IMG/VR virus record: IMGVR_UViG_3300042373_000525
Span: 1-23,993 of that record
Length of the DNA: 23,993 bases
Source of the DNA: a virus
Reading direction: 5' to 3' (one strand)
In this document: positions 4,957 through 23,993 of the stretch, piece by piece
Layout of the letters: each line of letters begins with the position of its first letter
Position numbering within the stretch: the first letter of the stretch is position 1
Notes under the pieces: model-generated
Database searches by the model: none
Seen by the model: only the letters and a program-made list of their open reading frames with translations
What the model was told of the DNA's origin: nothing
Made by a program: the position numbers and the translations under genes

Positions 4957-5168
4957 AGGTCGCACAGCCCTGACAGGAGCGCCATGCGATCCGTTGCCAG
5001 TTCGATGGCTCCCTCAATGCTGTCCGCCTGGAAGGTCAGTTCCGACCCAGCGGAGTCAATGAGCACCACCGTCCAGAGTGGTGGCTCACCGACTCGCACT
5101 AGGCCGTCGTAGTGATAGCCGAGCTGCGCGGCTCGTGTCTCTAGTTCTGTTAGCGCGACATTGCTCAT
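4953..5168 (-). CDS. Hypothetical small alpha/beta protein
   Basis: A 71-residue protein: an N-terminal helix, strands around LWTVVLIDSAGSELTFQ, then a helix starting DSIEGAIELATDRM. This beta-beta-beta-alpha outline resembles HicB-like or dsRBD-like mini-domains seen in many phage orphan genes; that is a fold guess only. The ATG at 5168 has a strong AGAGGAGG upstream and an ATGA overlap with the kinase stop, so it is preferred over the open frame to 5195. Confidence 0.6.
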   Translation of the reverse strand: MSNVALTELETRAAQLGYHYDGLVRVGEPPLWTVVLIDSAGSELTFQADSIEGAIELATDRMALLSGLCDL

Positions 5169-5764
5169 GATTCCTCCTCTGGGGATGCCGACCACTTGCC
5201 GTTATCCACCATGTACTGCCTGAGGATCGCGTAGGACTTCTCCGCTGTCAAGTCTGTTGTGTCGATCTGTAAGTCGTACTCGGTCTGAAGGTAGCCGTGC
5301 TCGGTCACATCGGCTGCCCCTTGGAGCACCCCACGGCGCTCGGTGCGAGCCGCTGCGGAGGCAAACACACGCACGATGGTGATGCTTGGGATGTGCTGCC
5401 GGAGGAAGTGCGCCTCCAGTGGCAGACGCACATCGTCAATGGCGATTGGCCGCCCTAGCGGTGCCAGACGGTTGAACGCGTCGTGCCACGCCTTGATCCA
5501 GAAGTAGGCATCCAGTTCTCGCAGCTGCGCGCCGATGTCTTGCAGGATCTCGCGGCCTGAGGTCTTGACATCCAAGCCTAGGCGGCGCTGCTCGTAGTGC
5601 TTGCTCTTGTCAAAGTCCACGCCGTAGGCGAGCGATGCCACCTCACGGATGGTCTGCGCGATTGGGAGCACGATGTACCGGCTCTTGCGTCGCTCTTCCA
5701 GCATCTCTGCCAGCGTGCTCTTCCCTGACCCCTGTGGTCCGACGAATGCAATGTGTGCGCTCAC
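5165..5764 (-). CDS. Deoxynucleoside monophosphate kinase-like P-loop protein
   Basis: A 199-residue protein with a Walker A motif GPQGSGKST at residues 9-17, a lid/substrate region (GREILQDIGAQLRELDAYFW) and the strand IAIDDVRLPLEAHFLR, which matches phage dNMP kinases of the T4 gp1 type. It would phosphorylate dNMPs to dNDPs to feed phage DNA synthesis; phage enzymes of this family can accept modified nucleotides. The C-terminus is acidic (SPEEES). The start is GTG, overlapping the endonuclease VII stop (GTGA). Adenylate kinase-like NTPases are the main alternative. Confidence 0.8.
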   Translation of the reverse strand: MSAHIAFVGPQGSGKSTLAEMLEERRKSRYIVLPIAQTIREVASLAYGVDFDKSKHYEQRRLGLDVKTSGREILQDIGAQLRELDAYFWIKAWHDAFNRLAPLGRPIAIDDVRLPLEAHFLRQHIPSITIVRVFASAAARTERRGVLQGAADVTEHGYLQTEYDLQIDTTDLTAEKSYAILRQYMVDNGKWSASPEEES

Positions 5765-6168
5765 TTCATGACCCTCCTCACATACTCAATCCACATATGC
5801 AAGCGCTGTGGATAGCGCTCTAGGAATCCGACCGCTCGGTTGCATGGTCCGCAGAGCAGCGCCCTGACGCACTTACCGCACGAGATCGGTTGACCCTTTG
5901 TCCTCCGAGTACCCAGCCCTTCGTACTGGCAGCAGCGCGGATCGTGATCGACCGTCACCGCCCTAGGCTCACCGAACCGAAGCGGCTCCTTGCACGCTCC
6001 GCACCGGTCAGACTGCTCCAGCCGTAAGGCCGTGTACTGCTCCATCGTCATGCGATGGTTGTAGAGCGTGTACTTGAGCACCCTCATTGCTCGCTCTTCT
6101 GGAGTCTCCTTTGCTCGTCGCTCTCTCATCCAGAGCGTCCGAGCCGATGGACTTTCAGAGCGCTTCAT
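5761..6168 (-). CDS. Recombination endonuclease VII family (HNH)
   Basis: A 135-residue protein with the endonuclease VII layout: a helix (YNHRMTMEQYTALRLEQ), CGAC at about 56-59, the catalytic VTVDHD at 72-76, then ALLCGPCNRAVGFL with the second cysteine pair at about 106-109, and a C-terminal helix. The T4 prototype resolves Holliday junctions and branched DNA before packaging. The insert between the catalytic strand and the second cysteine pair has extra cysteines (CC and CGKC) and is longer than in many relatives. The gene abuts the replication protein gene directly (TAA then ATG). Confidence 0.82.
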   Translation of the reverse strand: MKRSESPSARTLWMRERRAKETPEERAMRVLKYTLYNHRMTMEQYTALRLEQSDRCGACKEPLRFGEPRAVTVDHDPRCCQYEGLGTRRTKGQPISCGKCVRALLCGPCNRAVGFLERYPQRLHMWIEYVRRVMK

Positions 6169-6609
6169 TTAGCGCTTCCCTCCAAGAATCTCGCCTAGCG
6201 GTAAGAGCCTGCTCTTGCCATCTCGTTTAAGAGAGGATTTAGGAGAGATTCTGTTCTGCTCTACGCTGCTCTGCTCTGGTACCGTTGACTCACCCCTATT
6301 TCGTGCTCGCCAAGTTTGTCCACGCGCGACCGAGGTTGGGTCGACTTGGTACCGAGAGTAGTTCGAGATCGTCACGAGACCGTCTCCAGACTCGCTCAAA
6401 AGGCCAATCTCAATCAACTTATCCACAGCCCTGCCAAGGCGCGGTCCGATCACCTGCTTTGCGTGTGTCCGATTCTTGAAGATGCCGCCAGAGCGCATTG
6501 TCTTGACCTCAGCGATGAGGGTGATAAACGCTCGGAACTGCGTGTCAGTCAGAGCTGCAATCTTGTCATCCTTGTGGCTGTTGACATCCCACTTGACCCA
6601 TAGACTCAT
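6169..6609 (-). CDS. Winged-helix replication initiator/organizer-like protein
   Basis: A 146-residue protein. Residues 1 to about 75 match the N-terminal winged-helix domain of phage replisome organizers: a short WVKWDVNSHKDDKIAAL start, a helix through RAFITLIAEVK, then GRAVDKLIEIGLLSES and the wing LVTISNYSRYQ. The remainder is polar and basic, with no DnaD-like or helicase-loader domain, so the protein is short for the family. It probably binds the phage origin or recruits the host helicase. A clear GGAGGAC precedes the ATG. Its place between recombination genes and endonuclease VII fits a replication role. Confidence 0.65.
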   Translation of the reverse strand: MSLWVKWDVNSHKDDKIAALTDTQFRAFITLIAEVKTMRSGGIFKNRTHAKQVIGPRLGRAVDKLIEIGLLSESGDGLVTISNYSRYQVDPTSVARGQTWRARNRGESTVPEQSSVEQNRISPKSSLKRDGKSRLLPLGEILGGKR

Positions 6610-6881
6610 GTTGTCCTCCGCTCTACGAATGGATTTTCAGGCTGACCGTACACGGTGCACTCACAGGCCTTATCGATCTTGTCAAAGGTATTCCAGAACG
6701 ATTGCACCGCATCCTCTAGCGATGAATCCGAGCCGCCCCAGATCTTGCACCGGTCATTGAAGCCGTATTGATTGACAGACACATTCCATCGACCACTGAA
6801 CGCAATCTTCACCGTGGGCTTGCCACGATGCCGACTCCGCCAGTGCGACGCAATGCCGTTTACGACTGCTTCGATATCCAC
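6606..6881 (-). CDS. Hypothetical small protein
   Basis: A 91-residue protein with a GTG start behind an AAGGAGG site. Predicted outline: N-terminal helix, strands around VKIAFSGRWNVSVNQY and a helix in SLEDAVQSFWNTF, then a tail containing CEC. The middle resembles small beta-beta-alpha phage orphans; no family assigned. The stop overlaps the replication-protein ATG by four bases, and a hairpin precedes its ribosome site. Confidence 0.6.
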   Translation of the reverse strand: MDIEAVVNGIASHWRSRHRGKPTVKIAFSGRWNVSVNQYGFNDRCKIWGGSDSSLEDAVQSFWNTFDKIDKACECTVYGQPENPFVERRTT

Positions 6882-6900
6882 TGGTCCTCCTTGTGTTGGT

Positions 6901-6937
6901 GGCTGGGAGAGGTGGAGGTCGCCAGTCTCTCCCAGCC
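6901..6937 (-). repeat. Perfect 11-bp inverted repeat between recombination and replication genes
   Basis: GGCTGGGAGAG pairs exactly with CTCTCCCAGCC around a 15-base loop. It lies in the only sizeable gap (about 75 bases) within this part of the unit, 20 bases after the Rad52-like stop and just before the next ribosome site. No U tract follows, so it may be an mRNA-processing or attenuation hairpin; a U-less terminator is possible. Confidence 0.65.
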
Positions 6938-6956
6938 GTAGATGATGCCGCTCAGC

Positions 6957-7646
6957 TCAGAACGGCAGTGACTCCAGGTCGCTCTCGTTGCGCTCAGGCT
7001 CGCCGACTGGCGCGGTCTGCGCGTTCACCCAGGCGATGCTGGGCTTGCGCTTGCAGAACTGGCCGCTGCCGTCCTTCCCACCACAGGAATAGAACGCGTT
7101 GTACTCACGGCCAGTCTTGCTCACCCCTGCCGGCTTGAACTGCCAAGCCGTGCGGTGCTCTGGGCATTCGCCCTCTGCGAACAGCAGTGCGGCTGCGATC
7201 ACTGGGTCACTCGTAGAAACCGAAGGCTGAGACACCTTCACAGAGTCCACGGAGAGGGGTCTAGGAGCCACCGAGAGGCTCGCTCCTGTGCCTGACGCAT
7301 AAAGAGACCGCCCTACCCCAATCTGGGCAGCGCAGCGGCGCAGAGCGTCGCTTGCTGCTGACTTGAGTGGCTCGTCATCCTGAGCGCTGTTGGGATAGCC
7401 AAAGTCCTGTCGGACGGTGGTGACCCCATCGATCACGGCGATCAGGGTGCCGTGCACAACCTTGGCGGCAGGGTCTGCCACCTTGACCTCAAACTGCCAG
7501 CCAGCCAGACCGAGCACATCGTCAAGGCGCTGCGCCACGGCTCGCGCGTCGGCGTAGGTGAAGGTCATTCCGCCGCGCCCTGGGCGCGTCTTTAGATCTG
7601 TGCCGGTAAAGGGTGCGGCCAGTGCCGCTGCGATTTGCTTACTCAT
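6957..7646 (-). CDS. Rad52/22-family single-strand annealing protein with zinc module and SSB-like tail
   Basis: A 229-residue protein. Residues about 25-118 carry the Rad52/Rad22 annealing core (MTFTYADARAVAQRLDDV, then DFGYPNSAQDDEPLKSAASDALRRCA, then GVGRSLY). After a Ser/Val/Pro linker comes a cysteine/histidine cluster (CPEHRTAW, CGGKDGSGQFC) that could bind zinc, and the protein ends in an acidic tip ESDLESLPF, like the DDIPF end of SSB. It would coat and anneal ssDNA, working with the YqaJ exonuclease two genes upstream in a lambda Red-like pathway. The ATG at 7646 has GGAGG eight bases upstream and overlaps the preceding gene by eight bases. Confidence 0.82.
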   Translation of the reverse strand: MSKQIAAALAAPFTGTDLKTRPGRGGMTFTYADARAVAQRLDDVLGLAGWQFEVKVADPAAKVVHGTLIAVIDGVTTVRQDFGYPNSAQDDEPLKSAASDALRRCAAQIGVGRSLYASGTGASLSVAPRPLSVDSVKVSQPSVSTSDPVIAAALLFAEGECPEHRTAWQFKPAGVSKTGREYNAFYSCGGKDGSGQFCKRKPSIAWVNAQTAPVGEPERNESDLESLPF

Positions 7647-8205
7647 TCTCTGGTCCTCCAATGGTCTCTACAGGTAGCAGTTTCTCCGCCACCAGATTTA
7701 GTGAACTTGCCTTGGCAATGTGTCCGCTCTCAAATACGGTTCCCTCCTTCACTTCTGTTGCCAGATACAGATACTGGCTTTTATCCATCACTCCGAGCAG
7801 CCACGCGCGCTGGAATCGTGTAGCGCTGGGTGCGCCATTCCGATCCTCACCGAACGCGAGCTGCAAGTGAACGAATGCGTAATAGTCCACCGCTTGGTGG
7901 TCTCGGATGTAGTCAAAGACGCTCACCTCAACATCGTCGCCAGCCGGTCGGCTCCACGCCTTCGTCTTGACATCGACCTTGAGACCGCACACTTCGTAGT
8001 CGTGCGTCGTGCGATTGACTGGTAGGTAGGGCATCTTGCAATCTCGGAGCACTTGCTCAAAGACGGCCTGACCTAGCACGCCAGTCCAAGTCGTGTTGCC
8101 TGTCGCCTTCTCCTTGCGGAATCGCAAGCCATTGCTGGACTGCGCCTCTAGGAACATCTCCTCTGCGCGGATGATCAGCGCAGGTGTGATCGCTACCTCA
8201 ATCAC
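7639..8205 (-). CDS. PD-(D/E)XK nuclease-like protein
   Basis: A 188-residue protein. GVLGQAVFEQVL places a glutamate near residue 50; HDYEVCGLKVDVKTKAW then gives a D-x8-D-x-K core at about 69, 78 and 80, typical of PD-(D/E)XK nucleases, followed by a strand DYYAFVHLQL and a late alpha/beta region. It lies between the exonuclease and annealing-protein genes, joined by GTGA and ATGAGTAA overlaps, so a DNA-recombination role is likely. The substrate is unknown; it could be a restriction-like or repair endonuclease. The GTG start is set by overlap. Confidence 0.6.
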   Translation of the reverse strand: MIEVAITPALIIRAEEMFLEAQSSNGLRFRKEKATGNTTWTGVLGQAVFEQVLRDCKMPYLPVNRTTHDYEVCGLKVDVKTKAWSRPAGDDVEVSVFDYIRDHQAVDYYAFVHLQLAFGEDRNGAPSATRFQRAWLLGVMDKSQYLYLATEVKEGTVFESGHIAKASSLNLVAEKLLPVETIGGPENE

Positions 8206-9164
8206 GCATCACCGTCCTTGCCGTGAACGCGGAACACGCGCGCACCTGGCTTCTCTGAGGTGAAGCGCTTGATGGCTTCGCCGTAGGTGTCTGGGGCAAC
8301 AGTGCGGAGGACATCCGCGATGCTCTCCCAGTCCACCTTCACGCTGCTCTTGTTGGTCTTCCAAGTGGCAAGCCAGCCCTGCCCCTTCACGCCTTCACCC
8401 TCACCGATGGCTTCCTTGATGGCGATTGCCATCTCCTTCAGCGCAGCATCAGCAGCCTCCGCCTCAGCCTTCGCCTCAATGTAGAGACGCGCGATGTGAT
8501 CGAGCTGCGGATCTGCCTTCGCGTAGGTGTTGCTGCTCTGCGGCTTGACCTCTGCGAGTGTGTCGCTGTCGTTGCCGGTCAGCGGCGGTGGAGTCTTGGT
8601 CTTGACCAAGTCCAGGAACGCCACGGCCTTATCGAACAGCAGGGTCTGGTAGATCGGATCAGCCTCAACGCGCTCAATGCGGAATACCAAGCCAGAGAGC
8701 AGCACGGCGACATCGCAGTATTTCTTTCCTGTGCAGAAGAGCTGCCACTGCACCTGATCCACATATTCAGGTGGCACTGGGTACAACTGCCAGCGGCTGC
8801 TCGTTGAGGTCTTGATCTCTACGAGACCGTCGGTGTCGCCCACAATGGTGCGGTCCAGCGATGCCATCGCCCACGGATGCTCCTTGAGGCGCACGATGCC
8901 ATTCGACTTTCGCAGCTTCTTGCCAGTCTCGGCGGTGTAGTAGTCAGCGACTGCCTGCTCTAGCAACTGCCCACGCTGTGCCGCTGATCCTGCCTGCTGC
9001 TCACCGACCTGACCAGTCAACTCCGCCCAGAGTCGGTAGGCAGTCTTGAACGGCGATGTGCCGTTGATGGCGGTAATGCCGGTGGCGGTGATGCCGCCCT
9101 TCCGCATTTCGAACCACTCTGGGCTGCGCTGCGGCGCTGATACAAACTCGTAACGCTTGCTCAC
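8202..9164 (-). CDS. YqaJ-type (lambda Exo-like) recombination exonuclease
   Basis: A 320-residue protein with the YqaJ viral recombinase pattern: RSPEWFEMRKGGITATG near residues 13-29, RGQLLEQAVADYY, ASLDRTIVGDTDGLVEIKTST with catalytic D104, E116 and K118, and YVDQVQWQL. The C-terminal third includes a Glu/Ala-rich helix (EAKAEAEAADAALKEMA) common in this family. It would resect double-stranded ends 5' to 3', exposing ssDNA for the Rad52-like partner. I use the GTG at 9164, which overlaps the preceding stop (GTGA) and has GGAGGTGG upstream; the open frame extends to 9200. Confidence 0.88.
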   Translation of the reverse strand: MSKRYEFVSAPQRSPEWFEMRKGGITATGITAINGTSPFKTAYRLWAELTGQVGEQQAGSAAQRGQLLEQAVADYYTAETGKKLRKSNGIVRLKEHPWAMASLDRTIVGDTDGLVEIKTSTSSRWQLYPVPPEYVDQVQWQLFCTGKKYCDVAVLLSGLVFRIERVEADPIYQTLLFDKAVAFLDLVKTKTPPPLTGNDSDTLAEVKPQSSNTYAKADPQLDHIARLYIEAKAEAEAADAALKEMAIAIKEAIGEGEGVKGQGWLATWKTNKSSVKVDWESIADVLRTVAPDTYGEAIKRFTSEKPGARVFRVHGKDGDA

Positions 9165-9328
9165 TTGACCACCTCCCAGATCACTACCGCGATGATCCAA
9201 GCCACCATCAATGCGACGGTAAACTTGGCGCGCTCTCGCGTTCGCTCTTGGCGCTCTAGGCGCTGGTACTCCGATGTGAAGTACGGCCGCACAACCATCT
9301 TGGGCGTGCTCTTACGATTGACTTTCAC
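9161..9328 (-). CDS. Small basic protein with C-terminal membrane helix
   Basis: A 55-residue protein: a highly charged N-terminal part (SEYQRLERQERTRERAKF) and a single hydrophobic helix near the end (VALMVAWIIAVVIWEVV). It would sit in the inner membrane with the charged part probably in the cytoplasm. The GTG start has AGGAGG five to six bases upstream and overlaps the stop of the 28-residue gene. Function unknown. Confidence 0.6.
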   Translation of the reverse strand: MKVNRKSTPKMVVRPYFTSEYQRLERQERTRERAKFTVALMVAWIIAVVIWEVVK

Positions 9329-11435: not shown

Positions 11436-11608
11436 CAACCCTCCATCCACCGTAGTGGTCCAGTCAGTAGCCAGATCAGCGTGAGACCGCCGAAGAGTGC
11501 GGCCATCGTGGACTGCGTGTCGCCCTCTGGCAGAACGACCACAGCGAAGAGCAAGCCTAGAATCGTCCAGGCTCCACCGACGAGATCAACGATGATGCGC
11601 TTGATCAC
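11435..11608 (-). CDS. 57-residue two-helix membrane protein, holin candidate
   Basis: A GTG start with a GTGA overlap on the PA14 gene opens a 57-residue frame with two hydrophobic segments: about residues 8-26 (LVGGAWTILGLLFAVVVL) and about 35-50 (MAAFLFGG-like region to LIWLLTG), separated by an acidic turn (PEGDTQ). The N-terminus is basic (IKRI). Size, topology and position beside the endolysin fit a small holin or antiholin. Every junction is coupled to its neighbours. Confidence 0.6.
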   Translation of the reverse strand: MIKRIIVDLVGGAWTILGLLFAVVVLPEGDTQSTMAALFGGLTLIWLLTGPLRWMEG

Positions 11609-12747
11609 TTGGTCACCTTTCTTGCCGCAGCTGCAGCGCTAGATGCAGCAGCCACAGCAGCACTTGCCACCTGGCTGATCACGATTGCCACAGCAACCGG
11701 CGCAGCCTTCTCTTTCTCGGCAGGTGAGAGATCCTTGCCTAGGTTGGTAATCGCTTCGATCGCCTGCGTGACGGTCTCAGCGACAGCAGCAACAGCCTCA
11801 CCAACTGCCGCAACCGTTTGCTCCGCAATGTTATCTGGTGACGGTGTCGGTTCAGGTGTTGGCTCCACGCTCGGCGCTACGGATGGTGAGTCAGTAGGTA
11901 CAGGAGTGGGATCAGGAGTAGCGGACTCACTCGCACTAGGTTCTGGCGTAGGGTCAACCGTGGGCGACGGCTTGGGTGTGGGAGTCGGTGATGGGATCGG
12001 CGATGGTTGGACACTTGGCACCTCACTTGGTGTTGGTTCTACAGATGGTGACGGCTCTGGCGTCGGTGTTGGTGATGGCTCCACAGATGGCGTAGGATCT
12101 GGCGATGGAGATTCTGAAGGACTTGGTTCTGGCGTTGGCTCAACAGATGGCTCTTGGCTTGGTTCTGGTGACGGTGTTGGAGTGGGCGCTGGCAGAGCGC
12201 TCGTAGTCAGCCACGCAGCCGGTACGACACCGTAGCCAAGCGTTGGTGCGCCGAACCAGAGACGCGCACACGCGCCGCCACCCCACTCAAACATCCAGAT
12301 GTCGAGCGCATAGGACTGACCTGCGACGAGCTGCGAGTAGCCCTCATTCGGTCCAGACCAGTGACCGCCGCAGCCGTGGAAGTTCCAGTCATCAAGCGTC
12401 AGCACGCCGTCTAGCGTCATGTACCAGCCATCGTCTGACCAGTTGAGGAACTCCCACTGGCCGCTCTCTGGCACGGTCAGCCAGCCTGTGAAGTGGACCA
12501 TGAACATATCGGCAGGGCAGCCCTCTGCGGCAGGTGCGCCACCCCAATCAAAGTCGATCATTGAGACCACACCAGAGAAACAGACTGGCTGTGTGGGTGG
12601 CTCTTGCCACGGACCGAGGCCGAGCATCACGCCGTCGTAGACCGTCATCGTCACGCCCTGCTGCGGCAGTTCCTCAGCGCGCACGATGGGCAGGAAGATG
12701 AGCGTGCTGAAGATGATCCCCAGAAGTGGGAACGCGAGCCGCCTCAC
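11605..12747 (-). CDS. Exported PA14-domain protein with proline-rich spacer and hydrophobic C-terminus
   Basis: A 380-residue protein. Residues 1-24 are a signal peptide (MRRLAFPLLG..., cleavage after IVRA). Residues about 31-183 look like a PA14 carbohydrate-binding beta domain, with FTGWLTVPESGQWEFLNWSDDGWYMTLDG matching its hallmark SG-x-Y/W-x-F and SDDG strand pair; several cysteines could form disulfides. Residues 185-306 are a Pro/Ser/Thr/Glu spacer, and residues about 345-375 are an Ala/Val-rich segment that may be a membrane anchor. It would place a glycan-binding head outside the membrane, spanning the wall. The GTG start overlaps the upstream stop (GTGA). Superinfection exclusion or a lysis aid are guesses. 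Confidence 0.75.
   Translation of the reverse strand: MRRLAFPLLGIIFSTLIFLPIVRAEELPQQGVTMTVYDGVMLGLGPWQEPPTQPVCFSGVVSMIDFDWGGAPAAEGCPADMFMVHFTGWLTVPESGQWEFLNWSDDGWYMTLDGVLTLDDWNFHGCGGHWSGPNEGYSQLVAGQSYALDIWMFEWGGGACARLWFGAPTLGYGVVPAAWLTTSALPAPTPTPSPEPSQEPSVEPTPEPSPSESPSPDPTPSVEPSPTPTPEPSPSVEPTPSEVPSVQPSPIPSPTPTPKPSPTVDPTPEPSASESATPDPTPVPTDSPSVAPSVEPTPEPTPSPDNIAEQTVAAVGEAVAAVAETVTQAIEAITNLGKDLSPAEKEKAAPVAVAIVISQVASAAVAAASSAAAAARKVTK
11830..12192 (-). repeat. Low-complexity proline-rich coding repeat
   Basis: About 120 codons encode irregular tandem units of SVEPTPEPSPS type. At DNA level, GGCTC(C/A)AC-AGATGG-like blocks recur on the plus strand. The region is the stalk of the PA14 protein and is prone to unequal recombination, so length may vary between related phages. 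Confidence 0.8.
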
Positions 12748-21278: not shown

Positions 21279-22415
21279 TCAGTTGCAGGCGTAGTACTTA
21301 ACGGCATCAGCCTGGGCAAGCCCAGTTGCACCGCGAACCTCAACCTTGTACGAAACAAGGCCCAGGTTCCACGCGTACTCGCGGCTTACATCCACGCGGA
21401 TGCCACCGACGAGCGCGGTCTTGATCTGCCCAAGGTCACCGAACAGGATTGGCTTGGCATTGTCAGCAATGTCAGCAATCCCTGAAGCGGTGTAGACAGG
21501 CTTGCCAAGGAGGCGATCAACGCCACCCTGACCACCTGGCTGGAAGAGCGGAACGCTGGACGATGTGATTCCAAGGATTGCTCCAAGGGTCGCATCGGAC
21601 ATCAGCCAGCCGCTCTTAGCAGCCGAACGGTACTGCTGCTTCACAGCGTACTGAAGCGAGACCAGTTCCGCATAGGTCGGAACAAAGGTCGCACCAGTCA
21701 CGCCTGAACCAGCAGCGCTTACGACGGCCGTACCAGCGGCTGCGCCGTGAGCGATTGCAACTTCCTGACCAGCAGCGTCAGCGATGAACGCGGCGATGTC
21801 GAAAGCGGCATCCTCCACGAGCTCTTCTGAAACTTGGACCAGGATCTTGTAGCCGCTCGGAGTCAACTGCAAGGTACCCATTGTTGGGTCACTTTCTACG
21901 ATTGTCCCAGCCTCGCCAGGAGCGGTCGCAGTTCCGAGAGCCGTGGCTCGTGGGAACTTGATCGCGTTGCCGGTGGCAACCTGAATTACATCAACAACAT
22001 CTGGGTTGATGAATGGGTTGATCTGACCAGCCACAACATTGACGCGTGGGAACACGGCAACTGGATCACCCAGGTTGCTGCTCTTGGTCACATCGCGGCG
22101 CTCAAAGGTCTCTGAGCCGCCAGCAAGACCGATCGCGCGGAGGCGCTCGGAGTCGCTCTTAGCCTTAGGAGCCGTAGGAGCCACGACAGCGGCGAACTCG
22201 GCACGAGCCTCGTTAGCAGCCTTGCGTGCTTCGCCAGCGTTCTGCTCGGCTTTCATCGCCTCAGCCAGCACGCCAGCCTCTGCGATAAGTCGATCAAAAC
22301 GAGCCTTGTCTTCCCCATCCAGGGCGACTGAATTGTTGGCTGCGTCCACGGCAATGCCGCGAGCCTCAGTCAACAGGTGCGCTCGCTTGTCAGCGAGATT
22401 TGCGAAGTCGGACAT
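21279..22415 (-). CDS. Major capsid protein, HK97 fold
   Basis: A 378-residue protein. Residues 1 to about 100 are Ala/Glu/Lys-rich and helical, the delta/scaffold segment expected to be cut off by the prohead protease; the rest has HK97-type elements (AVFPRVNVVAGQINPFINPD, GTIVESDPTMGTLQLTPSGYKILVQVSEELVEDA, SGWLMSDATLGAI, LFGDLGQIKTALVGGIRVDVS). It would form the icosahedral shell. I prefer the ATG at 22415, with GGAGAAAGGA at good spacing; a GTG three codons earlier is also open. The protease gene lies directly upstream. Confidence 0.9.
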   Translation of the reverse strand: MSDFANLADKRAHLLTEARGIAVDAANNSVALDGEDKARFDRLIAEAGVLAEAMKAEQNAGEARKAANEARAEFAAVVAPTAPKAKSDSERLRAIGLAGGSETFERRDVTKSSNLGDPVAVFPRVNVVAGQINPFINPDVVDVIQVATGNAIKFPRATALGTATAPGEAGTIVESDPTMGTLQLTPSGYKILVQVSEELVEDAAFDIAAFIADAAGQEVAIAHGAAAGTAVVSAAGSGVTGATFVPTYAELVSLQYAVKQQYRSAAKSGWLMSDATLGAILGITSSSVPLFQPGGQGGVDRLLGKPVYTASGIADIADNAKPILFGDLGQIKTALVGGIRVDVSREYAWNLGLVSYKVEVRGATGLAQADAVKYYACN

Positions 22416-22527: not shown

Positions 22528-23733
22528 CTAGAGTGCTTCACCTTCTGCCGATGCCAAGGTGAGCATTGCCATAGCGACGGATGGGTCAATGACCTTCTCC
22601 TGCTTTGGTGCCAACTTGGAACGGACAGCATCAATGACAGCCACTTCCTCGGCGGACAGTTCGCGTCCAGCCTTGACTGCTTCAAGTGTGGCGACCAGCG
22701 CCTCAGCCTCTACGCCGATCTTTGGCGCGGTAACCTGGCGGATTGCCGTGAGACCAAGGGTCGCAGGGTAGGCAGGGGTCTGGCCACCGGCAGCAAGGAT
22801 GCTTACCTCAAACAGGTTGGCTTCCTTGATCGTGCGGCTGTTGCCATCCCAGGCATCCTGCGTCATCTGGAATCCAAATGACATTCCAGCGGCTGCGGCC
22901 TCGTGCGTCAGCATCGAGATGACCTTGGCTGCGTCTGGGTCGGCTGGGTCTAGCTTCGCCTCAACGCGCAGACCAGTCTCGTCCTCAGTCAACTGAAGGC
23001 GGCCGCTCGCGGTCGTGGCAAGGGCGCGCGCCTCGTCGTGACCAAACAGGAAGGCAATAATCTTCTGCCCTGCGGCAGCGCGAGAGAGTGAACGCTTGAA
23101 TGCTCCAGGCGCAATGCGCTCCTCGAACGGCAAGCCCTCAGACGCGCTGTTCCAGACAGACGCGTAGCCGGTAAAGGTTCGCTGTCCGTCAGCGTCAGCC
23201 TCGGCAAGACGGTACTCGCCGATTGGTAGCGAGCGAACTTCTTTCTCTTTCAAGTCAATCACCTCTGCTGTGTCGCCCACTGCTGAGCGATCTTCTTCTG
23301 ATGGTAGGGGCGCAGGTTGATCTTCCGAGTCATTATCCACAGCCTGATCGGCAAGGTATTCCTCTGGCGAGTACGCCTCAATCTCTAGGCGGCGAGCCAT
23401 CTCGCGCACCTCTGCGTCATTGTCAATGGCGTACTGGAGTTGCATTCCGTACTGCTCCTTGAGCAGGCCGTACTTGTACTCCTTGAATGCCAAGCCGGTA
23501 GCGAATGGCGTGCCGTCAAAGTCATTGAGGTGTACCTCTTCAACGCCAGCCAATTTGTATTCCTGAAGCCAAGCGCGCGTCTCCTCAAGTCGATCAATGC
23601 TGCGAGCAGAGACCACGATGATCTGGGTTTGGCTGTCCATTACCTTGCCGTTGAGGGCATTAATGAGCGGCTGGTTTGGTTGCTCGTTCTCTAGAACTAG
23701 CGTGCCGTCTAGGTCAACGATGGTGTAGGTCAT
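22528..23733 (-). CDS. Fusion of HAD-like phosphatase domain and HK97 prohead protease (S78)
   Basis: A 401-residue protein. Residues 1 to about 125 hold HAD motifs: TIVDLDGTLV (D7, D9), IVVSARS (S42), lysines at 84-87 and YAIDNDAEV (D104, D106). Residues about 126-165 are an acidic linker. From about 165, a prohead protease domain has the three expected active-site regions: FLFGHDEA (H232), AAGMSFGFQM (S285) and LFEVSIL (E309). The protease cuts the capsid scaffold segment during head maturation. S78 proteases are often near 200 residues; here the HAD part nearly doubles the length. An ATGA overlap with portal sets the start. The HAD role is unknown; the substrate could be a nucleotide or phosphorylated end. 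Confidence 0.85.
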   Translation of the reverse strand: MTYTIVDLDGTLVLENEQPNQPLINALNGKVMDSQTQIIVVSARSIDRLEETRAWLQEYKLAGVEEVHLNDFDGTPFATGLAFKEYKYGLLKEQYGMQLQYAIDNDAEVREMARRLEIEAYSPEEYLADQAVDNDSEDQPAPLPSEEDRSAVGDTAEVIDLKEKEVRSLPIGEYRLAEADADGQRTFTGYASVWNSASEGLPFEERIAPGAFKRSLSRAAAGQKIIAFLFGHDEARALATTASGRLQLTEDETGLRVEAKLDPADPDAAKVISMLTHEAAAAGMSFGFQMTQDAWDGNSRTIKEANLFEVSILAAGGQTPAYPATLGLTAIRQVTAPKIGVEAEALVATLEAVKAGRELSAEEVAVIDAVRSKLAPKQEKVIDPSVAMAMLTLASAEGEAL

Positions 23734-23993
23734 ACCTGTGGGTCCTGACCAACTACGCCGATGTTGAGCGCCTTGTAGTGCTCGTCACCACCGACCACAT
23801 CCGCGCGATCCTCAAGACGGCGGATCTCGTTGAGCGACAGGATGCCGTTATTTAAAGCGATGGCGTATGCGTCGTAGCGCTCCTTGGTCGTAGGTCGGAG
23901 CAGGCCGTCAAGGGTGAACTTGATGAAGGTCTGATCAGCACCTGGAACGAGACGCTGCAAGCCAGCCTCTAGCCGCGTGACCAGTGGTCCAAG
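23730..23993 (-). CDS. Phage portal protein, C-terminal fragment
   Basis: The frame is open from the window edge; only the last 87 residues are visible. The start of the visible part (LGPLVTRLEAGLQRLVPGAD), then FTLDGLLRPTTKERYDAYAIALNNGILSLNEIRRLEDRADVVGGDE, is the C-terminal clip-to-tail region of HK97-family portal proteins. Portal forms the dodecameric ring for DNA entry and tail attachment. The terminase genes are expected upstream, outside the window. An upstream start within this fragment is not needed. Confidence 0.88.
   Translation of the reverse strand, partial: LGPLVTRLEAGLQRLVPGADQTFIKFTLDGLLRPTTKERYDAYAIALNNGILSLNEIRRLEDRADVVGGDEHYKALNIGVVGQDPQV

Follow-up and report, generated by a model that had tools for sequence, protein, structure and literature searches.

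The gene read on the minus strand at 22528..23733 of the window (the whole 23,993-nucleotide stretch of viral DNA analysed here) encodes a 401 amino acid protein in which a HAD phosphatase domain is fused to a prohead protease, and a ribosome-binding site conserved within the frame suggests, from the comparison of related sequences, that the protease is also made alone. The annotation of such genes as 'prohead protease' hides an enzyme and, probably, a second product, in a virus group that is widespread and known mainly from metagenomes.

Genomic context and protease domain

The coding sequence forms a single unbroken frame on the minus strand only, from 23733 to 22528, and the plus-strand reading contains stops. 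A preliminary description of this DNA had correctly reported one unbroken frame at this place, but without stating the strand. The limits of the gene are supported by the open frame, by the conservation of the fusion in relatives and by the overlap of the ATG of the long form with the stop codon of the upstream portal gene (ATGA), whose 3' end occupies 23730..23993 on the minus strand (Phage_portal match, E 5e-13). The downstream gene, at 21279..22415 on the same strand with its ATG at 22415, probably encodes an HK97-type major capsid protein, as judged from gene order and start context, and the protease gene would accordingly lie between portal and capsid genes, the latter recognized by position. 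Elsewhere on the minus strand, the window carries a gene whose predicted product looks secreted and has a long tract of Pro-Ser-Thr-Glu-rich repeats (11605-12747) and a recombination cluster composed of endonuclease VII, a Rad52-like annealing protein and a YqaJ exonuclease (5761-9200); a P-loop kinase-like gene (5165-5764) is found near this cluster.

The C-terminal part of the protein contains a Peptidase_S78 domain at residues 176-325 (22759..23208, minus strand), with matches to both the Peptidase_S78 profile (E 6e-32, 111.6 bits against a cut-off of 21) and phrog_80, which corresponds to PHROG 80 (E 2e-34). Its residues H232, S285 and E309 are invariant among 38 aligned proteins, in agreement with the intact H-S-E protease described previously. 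This part was assigned from profile evidence alone because its AlphaFold model was poor (pLDDT <50).

The N-terminal domain is a conserved, PNKP-like HAD

Residues 1-132 (23338..23733, minus strand) are predicted with high confidence to form a HAD-superfamily fold with motifs I-IV, represented by D7, D9, S42, R44, K84 and D104. In the AlphaFold model, nearly all ten-residue blocks of residues 1-130 reached a pLDDT of 88-97, with one block at 78. The top Foldseek match was the 3' phosphatase of T4 Pnkp (E 2e-5), which VIA-align superimposed on the domain over 118 residues with a Z of 16.2 and an rmsd of 1.9, Pnkp1 being a close second. By sequence alone the signal is marginal, since the HAD_PNKP profile scored 21.0 bits, below its curated cut-off of 27.6, although phrog_415 (polynucleotide kinase) matched with E 1e-9; by fold it is clear. 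Compared with a full-length phage Pnkp, the DxDGT and SxR motifs and the Asp of the last motif are kept, while the stretch between motifs I and II is shorter. Because of this clear fold match and the retained motifs, the domain looks like a PNKP-type HAD, and its fold suggests phosphate-bearing nucleic-acid ends or nucleotides as the substrate class. The limits proposed beforehand for the two domains (residues 1-125 and 165-335) lie close to those found here (1-132 and about 161-340).

Across 115 HAD modules, D9, T11, R44, K84, D104 and R110 are invariant, D7 is present in 114 with Glu as the single exception, and position 42 is always Ser or Thr (Thr in three), so that the four motifs which the preliminary description had called intact (D7/D9, S42, K84 and D104) are conserved in 112-115 of the 115. 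Median dN/dS reached 0.118 for the HAD and 0.112 for the protease. Decay of the HAD was ruled out by the conserved motifs together with these ratios, and the earlier argument that the domain is no scaffold remnant is borne out by a comparison of sequences that points to selection on its catalytic residues. Two individual modules depart from this pattern, one in which Glu replaces the Asp that acts as nucleophile (L133) and one with a deletion of about 22 residues (L080), both possibly decaying or misassembled.

Distribution of the fusion and exchange of phosphatases

The search for the same fusion in related phages, which had been proposed as a check, identified it in more than 100 distinct ORFs from viral contigs. 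In IMG/VR, the gene occurs in identical form in three contigs, in addition to many divergent ones; these independent assemblies rule out chance, sequencing error or gene merger as the origin of the fusion. In a first set of 98 distinct ORFs, 84 were both 5'-complete and HAD-fused, and a single 5'-complete ORF (L013) bore a different N terminus; in a wider set, the HAD was present in 116 of 174 5'-complete ORFs. Neither of the outcomes named beforehand as speaking against the fusion was found: the predicted structure is a HAD fold, and in 5'-complete relatives these HADs are always carried on the protease, never encoded by separate genes. No second PNKP-like phosphatase was seen in eight related contigs of 21-37 kb.

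The HAD is exchanged among relatives. In one pair of relatives (L021 and L031), the proteases are 99.2% identical and the HADs 40% identical, which, on these identities, represents a swap of non-orthologous phosphatases onto near-identical proteases. A third HAD type, scoring 30.2 bits with HAD_PNKP and thus above the cut-off of 27.6, was detected at 34 loci, at 32 of them within a protein of this kind; two of the 32 are truncated before the protease. This divergent PNKP-like domain lies between the modules termed NCW and RGL in proteins resembling that of the Pontimonas phage phiPsal1 (L257, L284, L306 and L312-L343). Because it occupies the same place in these phiPsal1-like proteins, repeated, independent recruitment is suggested.

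Neither HAD nor protease alignments revealed the fusion in cellular genomes (genome_contigs), and no record in the phage collection reached 80% coverage of P0001. Within that collection, one HAD type (that of L008) had no match, and another (that of L038) matched free-standing polynucleotide kinases at about 30% identity. Such a fusion is already present in structure databases, labelled only 'Prohead protease' (A0A6J5R419). In the open-licence literature we found nothing specific on a HAD-prohead protease fusion or on an internal start in such a gene, and no account that brings together a PNKP-type phosphatase, exchangeable modules and an internal start that is conserved.

Exchangeable N-terminal modules

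Across the 174 distinct 5'-complete ORFs, the N-terminal modules comprise HAD, the short NCW, a Cys-rich module resembling HIPIP, DUF3721, DUF5824, a TUDOR-like domain (Hva1_TUDOR) and the helical RGL, D3721 labels overlapping NCW at about 10-25 bits being cross-hits. Relatives carry up to five or six modules, and the cultivated phiPsal1 displays the order NCW-Cys-RGL-protease with no HAD. The pairing of HAD and protease put forward in the preliminary description is therefore real but incomplete, given that HAD is, as far as these sequences indicate, one of several exchangeable N-terminal modules. The Hva1_TUDOR domain is inserted before RGL in L303, L306 and other relatives of 644 amino acids.

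RGL (about 109 amino acids; model pLDDT 96; example L233:4364-4690) precedes the protease in nearly all relatives, and is absent from the window and its nearest relatives. No convincing solved relative was found (best Z 4.7), nor any Pfam family. Because it recurs in viral prohead proteases, XkdF and portal proteins, RGL is, by its distribution, a head-associated domain without a name. In the window protein, the corresponding region is a poorly modelled linker (residues 133-160; 23254..23337, minus strand), where relatives bear RGL and other modules.

A conserved internal ribosome-binding site

Where the protease begins, the window contains a Shine-Dalgarno (SD) sequence, GAGGTGAT (23258..23265, minus strand, read from 23265 to 23258), followed by an in-frame TTG whose first base is 23253 (23251..23253, minus strand), corresponding to Leu161 of the long form. 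Initiation at this predicted start would give a short product of 241 amino acids and about 26 kDa, the protease alone (22528..23253, minus strand). The pairing energy of GAGGTGAT with the 3' end of 16S rRNA is -12.0 kcal/mol, against -4.0 for the start of the long form, and belongs to the strongest tier among the starts examined in the window.

An SD sequence and an ATG, GTG or TTG are found at the beginning of the protease in nearly every member, and in all families, with linkers that differ in amino-acid sequence: the SD stands at a suitable distance in linkers such as REIVDM, AEVIDL, AERYDV, LEENSM, KESNAM, AKGQAL, VTGEAL, RSNV and others. In the window family, the homologous codon is ATG in 82 cases, GTG in 11 and TTG in three, with no other codon. 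In the phiPsal1-like members, TTG is used in 56 of 56 Leu cases (TTG constituting 34% of their Leu codons) and GTG in four of four Val cases, and the preceding codon varies freely. Wherever the residue is Leu or Val, a start codon is thus kept (TTG in 56/56 and 3/3, GTG in 15/15). In the largest linker class, the Arg codon within the SD is AGG in 75 of 75 sequences, although AGG represents 2.5% of Arg codons.

Random synonymous recoding with the peptides held fixed attained the observed signal strength with p values from 0.009 to 0.7 per linker class, several classes (p about 0.5) not being significant alone, and a combined Fisher p of 0.0016 for classes that share ancestry and are not fully independent. 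Ranked against the other in-frame starts of its ORF, the junction start came out on top in 53 of 173 ORFs and within the first three in 116. Synonymous diversity showed no clear dip at the internal start, and the argument from such a dip was dropped. The codon conservation and the persistence of the SD suggest a conserved internal ribosome-binding site from which the protease would also be made alone, and we infer that the gene has two products, the long form joining phosphatase to protease and the short form consisting of the protease. The fusion product of the preliminary description is genuine and widespread; its assumption of a single product is incomplete.

Discussion

We propose that one late gene gives rise to two proteins in the same frame: a long form, with a PNKP-type HAD phosphatase joined N-terminally to an HK97-type prohead protease, and a short form starting at the internal SD-TTG (23253), which would be the protease alone and would carry out the bulk of head maturation. 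Its stronger SD would make the protease alone the more abundant product, despite the weakness of TTG as a start, with the long form as a minority passenger. The protease of HK97-type phages is enclosed in the prohead, so a domain fused to it would enter too, and the protease half of the long form may in this way carry the phosphatase into the assembling prohead. Once released there by proteolysis, the phosphatase would act on phosphate-bearing nucleic-acid ends or nucleotides; it may do so within the head, but the newly infected cell, reached by ejection along with the DNA, is the more likely site. A separate short protease would let the phage attach variable domains without spoiling head assembly. 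The phosphatase is, on this proposal, probably an optional cargo on some copies of the protease, and its packaging and injection are plausible. The recurrence in head proteins of RGL, which most relatives bear, speaks for the proposal. The weak TTG start and the lack of the head-associated RGL module in the window count against it, as do the linker classes that lack significance singly, the missing synonymous dip, the HAD_PNKP score below the cut-off and the short motif I-II stretch. Overall, our confidence that this is a two-product gene, with a minority head-borne phosphatase carrier and a short form responsible for most maturation, is evenly balanced.

The internal signal might instead go unused, reflecting only the acidic and basic residues of the linker together with a protease start inherited from an ancestor, and the fusion would then be the only product. 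Glu/Lys-rich linkers easily encode SD-like DNA, and both the linker classes with p about 0.5 and the missing synonymous dip fit this explanation. It does not account, however, for the start codons retained at every Leu and Val, for a rare Arg codon used in all 75 SD cases, or for a signal that persists at shifted positions in different linkers, and in view of the combined p value as well we regard it as unlikely. The second product could also be real and the head irrelevant: the HAD would then be a cytoplasmic enzyme healing nucleic-acid ends, which the fusion only co-expresses with a protease already freed by the internal start. The fold, and the nearest free relatives, which are phage polynucleotide kinases and phosphatases active in the cell, favour such a role; all 5'-complete relatives nonetheless keep these HADs on the protease and not as separate genes, and end healing is not an obvious function of the other modules found in this position, making a purely cytoplasmic function rather improbable.

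A third explanation concerns bulk instead of catalysis, the N-terminal extension serving as a scaffold that fills or organises the prohead core, or as a regulator that holds the protease inactive before assembly, with the HAD present for its volume or binding. Module content and length vary while the protease stays constant, the helical RGL module is tied to head proteins, and propeptides exist in prohead proteases (PMC9026906). A spacer would have no need of catalytic residues, whereas in the HAD these are invariant and under strong selection, and HADs unrelated to one another share them; a structural or regulatory role is accordingly very unlikely in our view.

A broader extension of the cargo proposal is possible but doubtful: the protease may be a general cargo carrier in a large, mostly uncultured group of phages, in which a minority long form would bring interchangeable modules, PNKP-like phosphatases of at least three kinds among them, into the prohead. 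The protease itself would cut these loose, and after leaving the head with the DNA they would heal or silence phosphate-bearing ends in the newly infected cell; how much carrier is made relative to free protease would be set by the conserved internal start. Should the phosphatase prove to be carried in the head, the protease would join the T4 internal proteins and MuF fusions as a carrier of early-infection effectors. Through the internal start this idea can be tested directly, and such a start would alter both the annotation and the expression of these proteases.

Comparison with known systems

The phosphatase domain shares its fold (Z 16.2, rmsd 1.9) and its DxDGT, SxR, Lys and Asp motifs with the 3' phosphatase of T4 Pnkp (PDB 5uj0, 1rrc), from which it differs in lacking a kinase domain, in its shorter motif I-II stretch and in its fusion to a head protease. 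With the HK97-type S78 prohead proteases of PHROG 80, such as that of phiPsal1, the window gene has in common the protease domain, the portal-protease-capsid order, a modular N terminus and an internal SD with TTG, which in phiPsal1 reads GGAG-N5-TTG; the phiPsal1 protein, in contrast, carries NCW, Cys and RGL modules and no HAD.

Variable domains borne on a head protein are also known from the MuF-fused polymorphic toxins of temperate phages (PMC5576092), although MuF is the carrier there; in the present case the variable part sits N-terminally on the protease, and there was no match to a MuF domain. In polyvalent proteins, one of the two nearest kinds known, the assemblin-like peptidase, of the prohead-protease class, is always C-terminal (Iyer et al. 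2017, PMC5512222). They likewise unite unrelated domains in one head-region polypeptide ending in such a peptidase, the counterparts here being HAD and S78, and the text of that study, as searched, mentions in such proteins neither a HAD or PNKP phosphatase nor an internal start. The likeness is one of architecture, delivery of the window protein into the host being hypothetical.

The other nearest kind, and the direct precedent for a two-start prohead protease, as reported through PMC9026906, is T4 gp21, where initiation at a second site, Met45, yields a shorter protein that head assembly requires (Hintermann and Kuhn 1992, cited therein). As in such two-start proteases, a conserved in-frame SD and start are present before the protease domain, and a shorter protease is predicted from them. 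Unlike the stretch preceding Met45 in that account of gp21, the part before the second start here is a whole enzyme or set of modules, of 160 to more than 400 residues.
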